Both the position numbers and the translations under genes were made by a program. A stretch of DNA of 64,000 nucleotides from positions 332,894 through 396,893 of the forward strand of contig NZ_MBFM01000002.1 in assembly GCF_001696715.1 (NCBI RefSeq). The letters are read 5' to 3'. The first letter of the stretch is position 1, and each line of letters begins with the position of its first letter. Source of the DNA: Thauera phenolivorans. Its GTDB lineage: Bacteria > Pseudomonadota > Gammaproteobacteria > Burkholderiales > Rhodocyclaceae. This document shows, piece by piece, positions 7,297 through 17,412 of the stretch. The notes beneath the pieces were generated by a model, which saw only the letters and a program-made list of their open reading frames with translations, did not search any database and had not been told where the DNA came from.

Positions 7297-9336
7297 TCAG
7301 CCGCCCTTCTCTTGACTCCCCGGCAGCTGCGGATAACGGACGAAATCGATCAGTTCCTGCACCTCGGCCGAGGGCGGCCGGGTCAGCAGGCTGACGACCA
7401 CGATCGTGGCGAAGCCGAGCGGCACGCCGAACACGCCGGCCGAGATCGGGTTGATCTCGAACCAGGCGTTCTCCATCGAGCCGCCGAAGAAGGGATGGGT
7501 GCGCACCGCGTACAGGAGCGTGACGCCGAGCCCGGCGAGCATGCCCGCGATCGCCCCCGGACGATTCGCGCGCCGCCAGAAGATGCCCAGCACCAGCGCG
7601 GGAAAGAAGGCGGCGGCGCCGATCGAGAAGGCCAGGCCGACCATGAACAGGATGTTGTCCGGGCGCAGCGAGGCCACCCAGGCGGCGACCACCGCCACCA
7701 CCAGCAGCTGCGACTTCGAGATCACCAGCCGGCGGTGGGTGCTCGCCTCGGGGTTGATCACCTTGTAGTAGAGGTCGTGCGACAGCGCGTTCGAGATCGT
7801 CAGCAGCAGGCCGTCGGCGGTCGACAGCGCGGCAGCCAGCCCGCCCGCCGCCACCAGCCCGGAGATCACGTAGGGCAGCCCGGCGATCTCGGGCGTGGCG
7901 AGCATGATGACGTCGGTGTTTATGCTGAGCTCGGCCAGCTGCAGGATGCCGTCGCCGTTGAGATCGTCGATGCTGACCAGTCCGACCTTGCCCCAGGATG
8001 CGACCCAGTCCGGCAGCACCGCGAGACTCGAGCCCACCACGTTGGTGTACACCTCCCACTTCGCGAAGGCGGCATAGGCCGGCGCGGTGAGGTAGAGCAG
8101 CGAGATGAAGAACAGCGACCACAACACCGAGCGCCGCGCCGCCGCCACGCCCGGCGTGGTGTAGTAGCGCATCAGGATGTGCGGCAGCGCCGCCGTGCCG
8201 AGCATCAGCACGAAGGTCAGGGCGAGGAAGTTCCTGCGCGCCACCGTCGCGGCTTCGGGCGTATCGCCCGGATGCGCCTCGGCGTGGCGCGGCGGCGGTT
8301 GCGCGCGCTCGAGTGCCAGCGTCCGCTCGCGCGACCAGATCGCCCGCGCCTGGGCGGTGGTGCGGGGCAGCTCGCCGAGCTCGCGCTCGGTCTGGGCGAT
8401 GTCGCGCGCGCCCGCGTTATCCAGTCGCAACTGGTTGAGCCGCTCGATCAGCGCCCGCCGCTCGTCCTCGAGCGACGCGGGCAGTGCCGCCATCTTGCGC
8501 GCGTACTCCTCGGCGCGCTGCTGGTACATCTGCCGCACCTCCAGCTCCGCGGGCGCATTGAACAACACCTCCTCGCGCTCGCCGATCTGCTGCACGACGC
8601 CGCCGTACATCAGCTGCGGCACCGGGATGCCGGTCATCTTGTAGGACAGGATCACCACCGGAACGAGGTAGGCGATGATCAGGATCACGTACTGCGACAC
8701 CTGGGTCCAGGTCACCGCCCGCATGCCGCCCAGGAAGGAGCACACCAGGATCCCGGCGAGGCCGACGAAGAGGCCGATCTCGAACTCGATGTTGATGAAG
8801 CGGCTGGTCACCAGACCGACGCCGTAGATCTGCGCGACCAGATACACGAAGCTCGCCAGCATGGTGGCCGCCAGCCCGATCAGGCGTGCGGCGTTGCCCT
8901 CGTAGCGCGCACCGAGGAAGTCGGGGATCGTGAATTGGCCGAACTTGCGCAGGTAGGGCGCGAGCAGCAGGGCGACCAGCACGAAGCCGCCGGTCCAGCC
9001 GGTGACGAAGGCGAGCCCCTCGAAACCGGAAAAATACAGCGTGCCGGCGAGCCCGATGAAGGAGGCGGCGCTCATCCAGTCGGCGGCGGTCGCCATGCCG
9101 TTGAACACCGCCGGCACCCGACGCCCGGCGACGTAGTATTCGGTGACGTCGGAGGTGCGGCTGATGACGCCGATCGTTGCATACACCGCGATCGTCACGA
9201 ACAGGAAGACGTGGCTGATCACCCGCTCGCTCAGGCCGTACTGCTCGCCGATCGCCAGCACCACGACGAAGAAGACGAAGGTGAGCGTGTACAGCGCGTA
9301 GTAGCGCCTGAGCTCGCGCGAGAACTGCCCAGGCAT
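7297..9336 (-). CDS. Sodium/solute symporter, VC_2705-like (acetate permease relative)
   Basis: Inner-membrane Na+-coupled carrier of the SSS family, probably for acetate or another short monocarboxylate. The 679-aa product has about 13 predicted membrane spans and SSS hallmarks such as [19 protein letters not shown] and a late [23 protein letters not shown] segment. A charged, coiled-coil-prone insertion of about 110 residues (roughly 235-345) interrupts the spans. This is characteristic of the VC_2705 subgroup and makes the protein longer than typical ActP (about 550 aa). It is the last gene of a minus-strand run, starting 27 nt after the exonuclease fusion. Substrate is inferred from family and from the nearby acsA. 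Confidence 0.85.
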
Positions 9337-9363: not shown

Positions 9364-11604
9364 TCAGTACTTGATCCGGGCGTAGTAGGTCTGCTCGGCC
9401 GCTTCGCGCGCCTGGCGCAGGGTCACCACGCCCTTTTCCGCCAGCAGCGGGATCAGCTTCAGCAGCACCTCGGCGGTGACGATCGCGTCGCCGAGCGCGG
9501 TGTGGCGCCCGATGATCGTGAGCCCGAGCCGCTCGGCGATCGCCTCCAGGCGGTGCGAATCCTGGTTCGGGTGCACCACCGCCGACAGCAGCAGGGTGTC
9601 GAGCACCGGCTGGTCGAAGCGCAGGCCGGTCTCGGCTTCCTTGAGTTGCAGGAAGCGCATGTCGAAGGCGGCGTTGTGGGCGATCAGCACGGTGTCGGCG
9701 GCGAAGGCGTGGAAGGCCGGCAGCACCTTGTCGATGGTCGGCTGCCCGCGCAGCATCTCGCGCGTGATGCCATGGATCTTCGCCGACTCGGGCGCCAGCG
9801 GGCGGCGCGGATCGACCAGCTGTTCGAAGGACTCGCCACGCAGCAGCTTGCCGTTGAGCACGCGCGTCGCGCCGATCTGGATGATCTCGTCGCCCTGCGA
9901 GGGGTGAAGTCCGGTGGTCTCGGTGTCGAACACCGTATAGGTGAGCGCGGTGAGCGGCCGGTCATCGAGCGCGTGCGAGCGTTCGGACCACTGGAAGAGG
10001 TCGAAGTCGTAGTACTCGGGCCGGCTCTCGCCGCGCAGGAAGGTCTCTGACTCGACCTGCTCCTGCGGCCGGGCCGCCGGCAGCACGATGCGGAAGAAGG
10101 CACGGTGGCGCACCTTCTCGCGCTCGAGCCACATCTCCCCATCGTGGCGCTCGATGACGTCGCGCACGCTCAGCGGGGAGCGCTCGCCCTCCATGTTCAT
10201 CGACTCGAGCTCCCAGCTCATCACCGTCTCGGTGCTCATCGCCTGCCCCGACCAGATCAGGTCGAGATGCACCAGGCGGCCGTGGGCGGTGAGGCGGAAG
10301 CGAACCTCGCGCACGCCGAACTCGTCCGACAGCCGGCTCGCGATGTAGGTCAGCGCCTGGATCAGCGAGAAGCTGTCGACCTTCAGCCAGATCGCCTCGT
10401 CGACCTCCTCGAGTTTGGTCGGCAGCGACAGCCGCTCCTCGATGCGCCGGCGGGCCGCCGCGATCAGGTCGGAACCGAGCATCTCCTCGAGCGGCCAGCG
10501 CGCCTTCAGCGAGTCGGCGAACTCGCGCGCGGTGTCGTCGAGGCGGGCACTCATCGCCTCCACCTCGTCGCGTACCACCTTGCGGAAGCGTCGCCGCATG
10601 TCGTCGGTGAGATCCTCGTATTCGAGCATGTCGGCCGCGGCGCGCACGTTGCCGAGCGAGGCGCGGTTGCCCTCGGTCAGGTTGTGCAGCATCTGGTCGC
10701 GGCGCGACTCGGTCTCGAAGGTGCGGGTGATGTTGTCGAGCATCAGGATGAAGCCGGTGATCGTGCGGGCGGTGGGGACCTCCGCCTCGGCAGCCTCGAG
10801 GGCGTCGACGGGCAGCGCCGCCTTCGCCTCGCCCCCCGCCTCCTCCCCCGCCATCGCCGGCTCTGCCGCCAGCACCGGCGCCATCTGCACCCGCAGCAGC
10901 TGGCCGGCGCGCGTCGTGGTGACGAAATTGGCCTGCGCCTGGCCGCAGCGTTTCAGGCGCTGCTGGATCGTGTCGAGCGCGTGGGCGATCATGGTGCGGT
11001 CGAACACGCCGTAGATCGAACGCCCCAGCCCGATCAGCTCACCGCCGCCCGCCACCGCAGGCGCGTCCGACAGGGCGCGGAACTGCAGCCGCGCGCGGTT
11101 GTTGTAGAGCAGGATGCGGCCATCGAGGTTGCACACCACGACGCTCTGGGTGAGCTCGGACATCAGCGCGGCGAGCCGGTTGCGCTCCTCCTCGATCGAG
11201 GCCTTTGCGCGGCCGATCTGCGCTTCCACGTCCGCCGTCAGGCTGTCGCGCTGTTCGGCGAGCTCGTTGACCGCGCGCGCCAGCAGCTGCACTTCGGGCG
11301 GCCCCTCGGGTTCGACCCGGAAGCCCCGGTTGGCGCCGAGCATCAAACGCAGGTTCTCCGCCATGCGCAGCAGTCCCTGCACGTACTGCCGGAACAGGCC
11401 GCGCAGCACCGCGACCCCGGCGCCGAAGCCCACCAGCGTCAGCAGGGTGCCGATCGGCAGGTGCGGGGTGACGACATCGACCAGCACCTGCCGATCGGCA
11501 CCCTTGGTCTCGAGCCACACGAACATCGCGGTGAGCAGGAAGGGGCCGGTCATCAGCAGACCCAGCACGATCACCGAGAGGATGAAGCGCATGCGGGCGG
11601 ACAT
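9364..11604 (-). CDS. Membrane sensor pseudokinase fused to a DEDDh 3'-5' exonuclease
   Basis: A 746-aa fusion. Residues 6-30 and 48-70 are two membrane helices flanking a short periplasmic loop. A HAMP-like linker (70-125) and a PAS-like domain (145-295) follow. Residues 300-370 align with a histidine kinase dimerisation helix, but Glu311 stands where the phosphoacceptor His should be. Residues 400-510 resemble a degenerate ATPase domain lacking recognisable N, G1 and G2 boxes. The C-terminus (550-746) is a complete DnaQ-type exonuclease: D560/E562 (FDTETTGL), D648 (HNAAFD), H701 and D706. It sits 3 nt after the receiver gene and before the symporter. Exonuclease genes are neighbours of ActP-like symporters in other proteobacteria (general recollection). 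Nucleic-acid substrate and signal are unknown. Confidence 0.85.
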   Translation of the reverse strand: MSARMRFILSVIVLGLLMTGPFLLTAMFVWLETKGADRQVLVDVVTPHLPIGTLLTLVGFGAGVAVLRGLFRQYVQGLLRMAENLRLMLGANRGFRVEPEGPPEVQLLARAVNELAEQRDSLTADVEAQIGRAKASIEEERNRLAALMSELTQSVVVCNLDGRILLYNNRARLQFRALSDAPAVAGGGELIGLGRSIYGVFDRTMIAHALDTIQQRLKRCGQAQANFVTTTRAGQLLRVQMAPVLAAEPAMAGEEAGGEAKAALPVDALEAAEAEVPTARTITGFILMLDNITRTFETESRRDQMLHNLTEGNRASLGNVRAAADMLEYEDLTDDMRRRFRKVVRDEVEAMSARLDDTAREFADSLKARWPLEEMLGSDLIAAARRRIEERLSLPTKLEEVDEAIWLKVDSFSLIQALTYIASRLSDEFGVREVRFRLTAHGRLVHLDLIWSGQAMSTETVMSWELESMNMEGERSPLSVRDVIERHDGEMWLEREKVRHRAFFRIVLPAARPQEQVESETFLRGESRPEYYDFDLFQWSERSHALDDRPLTALTYTVFDTETTGLHPSQGDEIIQIGATRVLNGKLLRGESFEQLVDPRRPLAPESAKIHGITREMLRGQPTIDKVLPAFHAFAADTVLIAHNAAFDMRFLQLKEAETGLRFDQPVLDTLLLSAVVHPNQDSHRLEAIAERLGLTIIGRHTALGDAIVTAEVLLKLIPLLAEKGVVTLRQAREAAEQTYYARIKY

Positions 11605-15172: not shown

Positions 15173-17137
<1,965 letters not shown>

Positions 17138-17412
17138 ACTCACCTCTCCTCGACTGATCGATTGTTCTTCAAGCGAACCACACAGCCCGACCGGTTGGTT
17201 CCGGCCTGGAATTGCTCTTGTCACGACGCTGGATGGGCCGATCGCGTTCGGCCCGTATTAAAGATTAGCTAACTTACAAAGGACTTACACTGCCGATCAC
17301 AGCACCAACACCTCGTACCAGCGGCGACCGCGGCGTCCCCTCCCCCGCAGATGCTAGAATTCCGGCCGCCCGGCGCGGCCGCGCCGCAACCCGCTCTCAC
17401 GGAGACCAGCCC

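Follow-up and report, generated by a model that had tools for sequence, protein, structure and literature searches.

What is a DnaQ-type exonuclease doing at the end of a membrane-bound, kinase-like protein encoded beside a sensor kinase with a transporter-like membrane part? A locus of Thauera phenolivorans (GCF_001696715.1, contig NZ_MBFM01000002.1, positions 332,894-396,893 of the forward strand) raises this question, and we analyzed it as a window, meaning the whole 64,000-nucleotide (nt) stretch, to whose numbering all positions below refer. A single gene encodes a fusion protein that joins a membrane hairpin, HAMP-like and PAS-like regions and a histidine-kinase-like core to a DEDDh exonuclease, and it directly follows the genes for a single-domain receiver and an SLC5-type histidine kinase. 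The fusion is a real, recurring and constrained protein of unusual design, and what is new here is that its pseudokinase core appears to read the neighboring receiver. We give a probability of roughly 0.55 to a reversed relay like that of DivL, in which the phosphorylated receiver would act on the pseudokinase and, through it, on a membrane-tethered 3′-5′ exonuclease.

An earlier note on this DNA, made from its letters alone, had described one chain with two membrane helices, HAMP-like and PAS-like regions, a dimerization helix whose His is replaced by Glu311, a degenerate ATPase domain and a full set of DnaQ-type exonuclease residues, and the reading frame, hydropathy, a structural model and scans of homologs all bear this anatomy out. 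The exonuclease is matched by RNase_T in Pfam at residues 558-714 (E = 2.2e-36); by sequence it lies closest to Thermotoga maritima PolC (2p1j, E = 7e-35), followed by DinG, epsilon, ExoX and Cas2-DEDDh, and in Foldseek it superposes well on solved domains (TM-score 0.84-0.86 by the epsilon target), with PolC, DinG, epsilon and ExoX among the matches. We aligned 99 rows, comprising the window protein, the copy of it in its own genome (L001) and a further 97 proteins longer than 600 amino acids (aa), and found D560, E562, D648, H701 and D706 kept in 98 of them, only L025 being without all five; in 15 of the 16 rows inspected, no other part was as well conserved as the exonuclease. These residues lie in an RNase H-like fold, and the domain is thus a predicted 3′-5′ exonuclease.

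Scanned at E ≤ 0.1, the window protein itself matches exonuclease-type Pfam families only, with no HAMP, PAS, HisKA or HATPase. Pfam alone would deny these regions, a verdict that we reverse because scans across homologs and fold matches recover them. In 40 homologs at a lax E ≤ 1, PAS matched the N-terminal part of 23, PAS_4 that of 26 (best 9.4e-9) and HAMP that of 4 (best 0.013; 0.08 for the window protein), and at E ≤ 10 the region 280-520 had HisKA matches in 11 (best 1.1e-4) and a single HATPase_c match (0.13). An AlphaFold2 model built from 90 of the 99 rows (leaving out L001, L025, L045, L046, L050, L061, L062, L092 and L109) has a mean predicted local distance difference test (pLDDT) score of 85.4 and a predicted TM-score (pTM) of 0.52, and shows helices at 3-32 and 36-90, a long helix at 103-150, a PAS-like fold to 291, two helices of a dimerization and histidine phosphotransfer (DHp) domain at 293-327 and 334-362, an alpha/beta domain at 373-510, and a low-confidence segment at 514-528 that precedes the exonuclease. 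The best Foldseek kinase match in the PDB is to WalK (9a5d, E = 1.7e-19 over 504 columns), with further matches to VicK (4i5s), LOV kinases, ThkA-TrrA, NifL, HK853-RR468 and DivL (4q20). These kinase matches reach TM-scores of only about 0.2 by query, with large root-mean-square deviations, because the alignments span several mobile domains, and we therefore rely on E-values and sequence profiles. Specifically, hhalign aligned residues 280-520 with the core of the neighboring kinase at a probability of 98.8 (E = 5.6e-17), placing the H of its HELRTPL opposite E311, and profiles of the same region matched VicK 4i5s in the PDB at E = 2.1e-9 (hmmsearch) and DivL 4q20 at E = 0.0027. By model and profile, the DHp hairpin and the alpha/beta ATPase-like domain together form a predicted histidine-kinase fold, and the absence of such a fold at residues 300-510 is excluded. 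The HAMP-, PAS- and kinase-like regions are therefore genuine but divergent.

Catalytic ATPase domains of this type carry an N-box Asn and the motifs DxGxG and GxGxG, and autophosphorylation uses an acceptor His; the sequences point to a fold that keeps neither. Across the 99 rows position 311 is E in 71, D in 19, Q in 3, T in 2, R in 2, V in 1, L in 1 and H in none, and the residues facing the N-box, DNGPG (G1) and GTGLG (G2) of the neighboring kinase core are replaced. R314, on the same predicted helix, is kept in all 99.

The architecture recurs well beyond Thauera. In an even draw of 368 other genomes from across the class, at least 17 carry the fusion, and at least 2 more carry it without an intact exonuclease. 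Of 579 related loci in a species collection, the 80 best all encode it, two of them (L046 and L107) cut by contig ends; their titles are mostly Rhodocyclales or Burkholderiales, some only Proteobacteria or Gammaproteobacteria, and the set is biased to near relatives because only these best 80 were kept. At L045 (1255-3613), from a metagenome-assembled genome, the fusion gene extends over two overlapping frames, apparently through an assembly frameshift.

The receiver and symporter-type kinase that the earlier note placed directly upstream are likewise found beside the fusion elsewhere: the receiver lies upstream on the same strand in 81 of 97 fusion loci, and 77 have the kinase in the same orientation, 72 of them upstream and 5 downstream. 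We surveyed 300 genomes of the order, counting the N-terminal part at E ≤ 1.3e-20 and the kinase at ≥58% identity, and found the former in 20, the latter in 33 and both in 17, against a chance expectation of 2.2 (kinship ignored). One of the 20 (G472) is without the pseudokinase core, and three genomes have the fusion without such a kinase (G394 and G522, of one genus, and G642). Neither receiver nor kinase was seen within the stretch examined in 16 of the 97 loci, nine of which offered at most 1.4 kb of upstream sequence in that count; longer stretches of L007, L021 and L025 hold no adjacent receiver, and in L012 a receiver lies about 5 kb away on the opposite strand. Seven of the 16 are from Accumulibacter, where we rejected a fusion gene set apart from its kinase-receiver pair. 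In all seven genomes the kinase (64-66% identical) and receiver (70-73%) sit side by side, away from the orphan copy, and a complete second fusion of 728-732 aa, 53-55% identical to that of the window, directly follows the receiver. All seven thus hold the operon, and the orphan, whose neighborhood we read in four of the seven, is an extra copy. G068 and G199 also have two fusion copies. The Accumulibacter orphans (L063, L069, L071, L073, L075, L082 and L083) are closer to the window protein than are the operon copies (L200-L206).

Within its own genome the pseudokinase most resembles the kinase next to it. A DHp-like profile built from 40 of the 99 rows and scored against 29 HisKA-matching places (26 above the Pfam cut-off) ranked the neighboring kinase first at 44.2 bits, with the runner-up at 18.6, and a profile of the whole region 280-520 gave 50.8 and 18.1 bits. 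The pseudokinase and the neighboring DHp domain share residues that are uncommon among 23 other kinases of this genome; counted from the His, these are E-14, D-8, T-1, A+11, P+20, R+27, F+30 and E+37.

If the pseudokinase reads the receiver, the two should constrain each other, and rates of evolution bear on this. We compared the window and 70 of 81 fusion-bearing loci (L035-L114 and L152; the others have no long enough kinase or receiver) with 14 of 16 fusion-free loci (all but L143 and L146) and one locus that has the exonuclease without the pseudokinase, leaving out the divergent L006-L022. At a kinase identity of 65-70%, receivers are on average 72.0% identical among fusion-bearing loci (639 pairs) and 52.7% among fusion-free loci (53 pairs). 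With the kinase topology fixed, 143 fusion-bearing branches give a receiver/kinase branch-length ratio of 0.61. The 26 branches within four clades that have no pseudokinase give 1.73 (1.22, 1.88, 2.13 and 2.40 by clade), so that the clade values are 2-4 times the fusion-bearing one. As a control, 43 fusion-bearing subclades of 2-8 tips, nested and non-independent, reach at most 1.19, with a median of 0.60. With acs, encoding acetyl-CoA synthetase, as control gene (33 fusion-bearing and 12 fusion-free loci that have it), acs/kinase goes from 0.37 to 0.51 while receiver/kinase goes from 0.71 to 2.33. The locus that has the exonuclease without the core, L151 (G472), separates the two parts of the fusion: its kinase is 91% identical to that of fusion-free G512, and its receiver has diverged, to about 52% identity with most fusion-bearing loci and 65% with one whose kinase is 82% identical, which we take to be its congener L152. 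Because L151 combines an exonuclease, no core and a diverged receiver, the constraint on the receiver tracks the pseudokinase core and not the exonuclease. In L133-L148 and L151 the receiver is mostly retained in the absence of the pseudokinase, but its evolution is fast, and 10 of 15 loci have E in place of D9.

The converse holds for the pseudokinase. Scored with the DHp profile of the kinase, the DHp of the fusion reaches a mean of 23.4 bits in 72 loci (10.9-39.3), with 32.6 in G428, and in Accumulibacter it reaches 26-32 bits in the seven orphan copies and 32-38 in six operon copies. In four lineages without a close receiver it falls to 0.6 (G522), -1.3 (G642), 3.1 (G051) and -2.5 bits (G326); the best receiver match in the genomes of G522, G642 and G326 is only 36-39% identical, and G051 has none at E ≤ 1e-22. 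When the comparison is confined to the 70 rows with 75-85% exonuclease identity to the consensus, DHp identity is lowest in G522 (32%) and G642 (38%), the next values being 45 and 53%, and the G642 copy has lost R314 as well. Receiver and DHp are thus under mutual evolutionary dependence, with three exceptions (L022, L016 and L018), and on this genomic evidence the fusion probably has a cognate single-domain receiver, as a DivL-like pseudokinase would.

Several observations weigh against a relay through the receiver. Of the 33 order genomes with the kinase, 16 show no fusion in a search that scored at most 4 candidates per genome, and their kinase neighborhoods show none either; a similar receiver is nonetheless present in 15 of these 16 neighborhoods (in L133 about 5 kb off on the other strand; none in L146). 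Because fusion-free kinase loci mostly keep a similar receiver, the receiver may have other targets. Orphan and symporter-side copies of the fusion sit apart from receiver and kinase, and in the ORF (open reading frame) sets searched we found no gene fusion of the receiver or the kinase with the fusion protein. A tree puts the pseudokinase beside the neighboring kinase family with a support of only 46, and we do not claim a sister relation. The rate effect is large but reflects few independent events, because there are only four pseudokinase-free clades, in which acs is also somewhat faster. Finally, L022 (G365) keeps an adjacent receiver and kinase with a DHp score of only 2.7, and L016 (G093) and L018 (G214) score 22.6 and 11.7 with no receiver at E ≤ 1e-30 in their fragmented assemblies. 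The earlier interpretation as a whole, a membrane signal passed through the receiver to control the exonuclease, is partly supported: the kinase fold, the closeness of the DHp to that of the neighboring kinase and the coupled constraint speak for it, but the tie to receiver and kinase is not strict, because there are PAS-exonucleases (L151, L192), a lone exonuclease gene (L199), full fusions in genomes without a close receiver (G394/G522 and G642) and the Accumulibacter orphans. That note had also held that finding the two parts as separate genes elsewhere would count against it, and this is the case in part, since the exonuclease is a gene of its own in related clusters such as L199.

Some of these same loci suggest instead that the core could be a structural dimer spacer, with the membrane/HAMP/PAS part controlling the exonuclease, perhaps through contact with the symporter, and the receiver acting elsewhere. 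Exonucleases with membrane and PAS-like parts and no pseudokinase core exist in L151 and L192, the latter with weak PAS-like parts and near a symporter; in G642, a genome where we found no such kinase or close receiver, the fusion comes after a symporter gene and a small ORF; one of the G068 copies lies beside a symporter; and the Accumulibacter orphans could be read in the same way. We nevertheless consider a mere spacer rather unlikely, as it accounts neither for the neighboring kinase giving the strongest DHp match nor for the joint loss of constraint on receiver and DHp.

The docking evidence would also fit if information flowed the other way, with the pseudokinase sequestering or stabilizing the receiver, as a sink or phosphatase-like adaptor that tunes the kinase pathway, and the nuclease being secondary. 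One genus does keep homologs without an intact exonuclease (L025, and a G295 copy that matches only to residue 513), but these occur in genomes without a close receiver, contrary to expectation, and the near-complete conservation of the catalytic residues, together with the exonuclease being the best conserved part, makes this direction improbable. Improbable to a greater degree is an ordinary, unregulated repair or proofreading-type exonuclease fused to a decayed kinase. Its nearest solved relatives by sequence are indeed PolC, DinG and epsilon domains, but the operon recurs with kinase and receiver and often with symporter and acs, the DHp is constrained, and an RNase_T protein of Pseudomonas putida, PP_0353, belongs to an acetate/pyruvate regulon (PMC9927547). 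A sequencing or assembly error joining two frames is already refuted, since dozens of separate genomes carry the same fusion, with no internal stops in the class-wide matches listed, and the fusion is therefore real.

In the DivL-like relay that we prefer, the SLC5-type kinase would autophosphorylate and then phosphorylate the receiver, which has no DNA-binding part or output domain. The receiver would dock on the DHp-like bundle, whose docking face is predicted to be kinase-like, of a pseudokinase that could itself neither accept nor make phosphate, and docking would shift the arrangement of PAS, DHp and ATPase-like domains and hence the C-terminal exonuclease. The target of the exonuclease might then be a membrane-proximal 3′ end, most probably that of an RNA of the acetate/pyruvate program. 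We infer physical docking, its dependence on phosphorylation and allosteric control of the nuclease; an RNA substrate, an organic-acid signal and the sign of control are guesses. RNA is the substrate we favor, with odds near even against DNA 3′ ends or short oligonucleotides, because RNase_T genes recur near such symporters and because PP_0353 is linked to growth on pyruvate. Only tentatively, and with more doubt than belief, do we propose the full scheme, in which a carboxylate-sensing, transporter-like kinase would signal via receiver and pseudokinase to a tethered exonuclease that trims chosen RNA 3′ ends, so that carbon use would come under post-transcriptional control with no transcription factor involved. 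Should the relay prove real, nucleic-acid decay at the membrane would be under the direct control of a nutrient signal, and a role would be suggested for unexplained exonuclease genes in acetate/pyruvate regulons, such as PP_0353. The natural architectures (exonuclease alone, PAS-exonuclease, full fusion and degenerate forms) supply controls. To our knowledge, no described two-component pathway has a nuclease as its output, and among the PMC titles and abstract openings listed, where coverage of subscription journals is thin, we found no paper describing such a fusion.

Few studies of bacterial two-component pseudokinases are reported according to PMC5361649, which supplies the precedent of a reversed relay, from DivK~P to DivL. 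Like the fusion, DivL of Caulobacter has its His replaced, keeps the kinase fold, has PAS ahead of DHp and has a single-domain receiver as partner, the latter being proposed here; the acceptor position is Tyr in DivL (PMC5361649) and mostly Glu or Asp in the fusion. DivL acts on another kinase, CckA, whereas the output proposed here is an exonuclease of the same chain. By analogy the fusion would work like DivL in logic, and we claim no membership of the DivL family.

The neighboring kinase resembles CbrA and CrbS (MxtR), with an SLC5-like membrane part joined to intact HisKA and HATPase domains and with acs and a symporter alongside. Its residues 8-475 match 10ED (E = 7.8e-71), an SLC5-STAC structure of CbrA (PMC13022988). 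Pfam gives no SSF match in this kinase and no STAC match, and the 10ED alignment stops at chain residue 451, ahead of STAC. Unlike CrbS, which partners the transcriptional regulator CrbR (PMC5715377), this kinase has an adjacent receiver without an output domain, and of a CrbS/R-like control of acs by acetate we see here only the position of acs upstream of the kinase. We considered opposite-strand regulators near fusion-free clusters as CrbR and dropped them, as they are OmpR-type by eye in L144, L151 and L152.

PP_0353 is a target of MxtR/ErdR and lies in an operon with the CBS protein gene PP_0354; its deletion delays growth on pyruvate, and its authors speculate on mRNA decay and leave the mechanism open (PMC9927547). 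We liken it to the fusion by description, not sequence, as an RNase_T protein tied to an organic-acid regulon; that paper describes it with an RNase_T match only. Its operon recalls L199, where a stand-alone RNase_T gene lies beside acs, a symporter-like gene, a kinase with an SLC5-like end and an ORF that by eye resembles a CBS/DUF294 protein. CsrD is a membrane protein with GGDEF/EAL-type domains and is not known to be a nuclease itself. It is comparable at most as a carbon-linked signaling protein steering RNA decay, in that it promotes turnover of the CsrB/C RNAs (PMC5027483), and we claim no homology. PolC and DnaQ epsilon, DinG and ExoX share the DEDDh fold and residues, and none of the matches listed is fused to a kinase-like membrane sensor. 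These are replication or repair enzymes.

Table 1. The fusion gene, its parts and its neighbors in the window (positions in window numbering).
Feature	Position	Strand	Description
Fusion protein, 746 aa	9364..11604	minus	Single uninterrupted ORF; transmembrane hairpin, HAMP-like, PAS, pseudo-histidine-kinase core, DEDDh exonuclease
Residues 1-150	11155..11604	minus	Hydrophobic segments ~5-31 and ~48-71 (hydropathy), short loop between; HAMP-like helices
Residues 151-292, PAS fold	10729..11154	minus	Pfam in homologs, AlphaFold model, conservation; C158 nearly invariant, N168 invariant
Residues 293-365, DHp-like helical hairpin	10510..10728	minus	Model and profile alignment; His replaced by E311, R314 kept
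Glu311 codon at phospho-acceptor His position	10672..10674	minus	hhalign and column counts
Residues 366-512, degenerate ATPase-like domain	10069..10509	minus	N-box/G-box residues replaced; kinase-core alignment, model, fold
Linker motif RPEYYDFDLF	9994..10023	minus	R528, P529, D533 and F534 invariant in 90 rows
Residues 546-746, predicted DEDDh 3′-5′ exonuclease domain	9367..9969	minus	Complete active site
Single-domain receiver, 122 aa	11608..11976	minus	3 nt upstream of fusion
SLC5-type transceptor histidine kinase, 915 aa	12006..14753	minus	29-nt gap to receiver; HisKA and HATPase_c intact (Pfam)
VC_2705-family sodium/solute symporter	7297..9336	minus	27 nt downstream of fusion; NCBIfam TIGR03648, E = 1.4e-233
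Acetyl-CoA synthetase gene (acs)	15173..17224	minus	Upstream of kinase, 419-nt gap; named from reading the translation

The features of the locus are collected in Table 1. In the receiver, D9, D10, D53 and K105 are kept in all 84 aligned rows and T83 in 83 of them. Related loci repeatedly have an acs homolog upstream of the kinase, and in the window a ClpB-like gene, named by reading its translation, lies further downstream, past the symporter. The T. phenolivorans genome holds one complete copy of the fusion and four further places that match the exonuclease only.

The linker ahead of the exonuclease contains an RPxxYDFxLF-like motif that sits in the low-confidence segment of the model and may be autoinhibitory or serve in docking; a similar motif accompanies the exonuclease in L023 and L151, both without a pseudokinase. 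We considered DFDLF as a beta-clamp docking site, against what we take to be the consensus for such sites, whose usual Gln is absent. In the PAS core, Cys158 (VVCNLDGR) is nearly invariant and might be a redox or ligand site.

Two genera show the parts of the fusion in different states. One forms a natural series, with a full fusion in L152 (G428), a membrane/PAS-exonuclease only in L151 (G472) and no fusion found beside the kinase-receiver pair in L141 (G512). In the other, L025 (the same as L191, G051) is the homolog without all five catalytic residues and L190 (G295) the copy that ends its match at residue 513; kinase and nuclease parts both look dead in these, and a polymerase-like ORF, by eye, follows the L025 gene. 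In L026 and L027 the same type of exonuclease is joined to sequence that by eye resembles CBS and a DUF294 nucleotidyltransferase, which may be a functional partner of the exonuclease, and in L152 the full fusion lies beside a DUF294 gene (Pfam).

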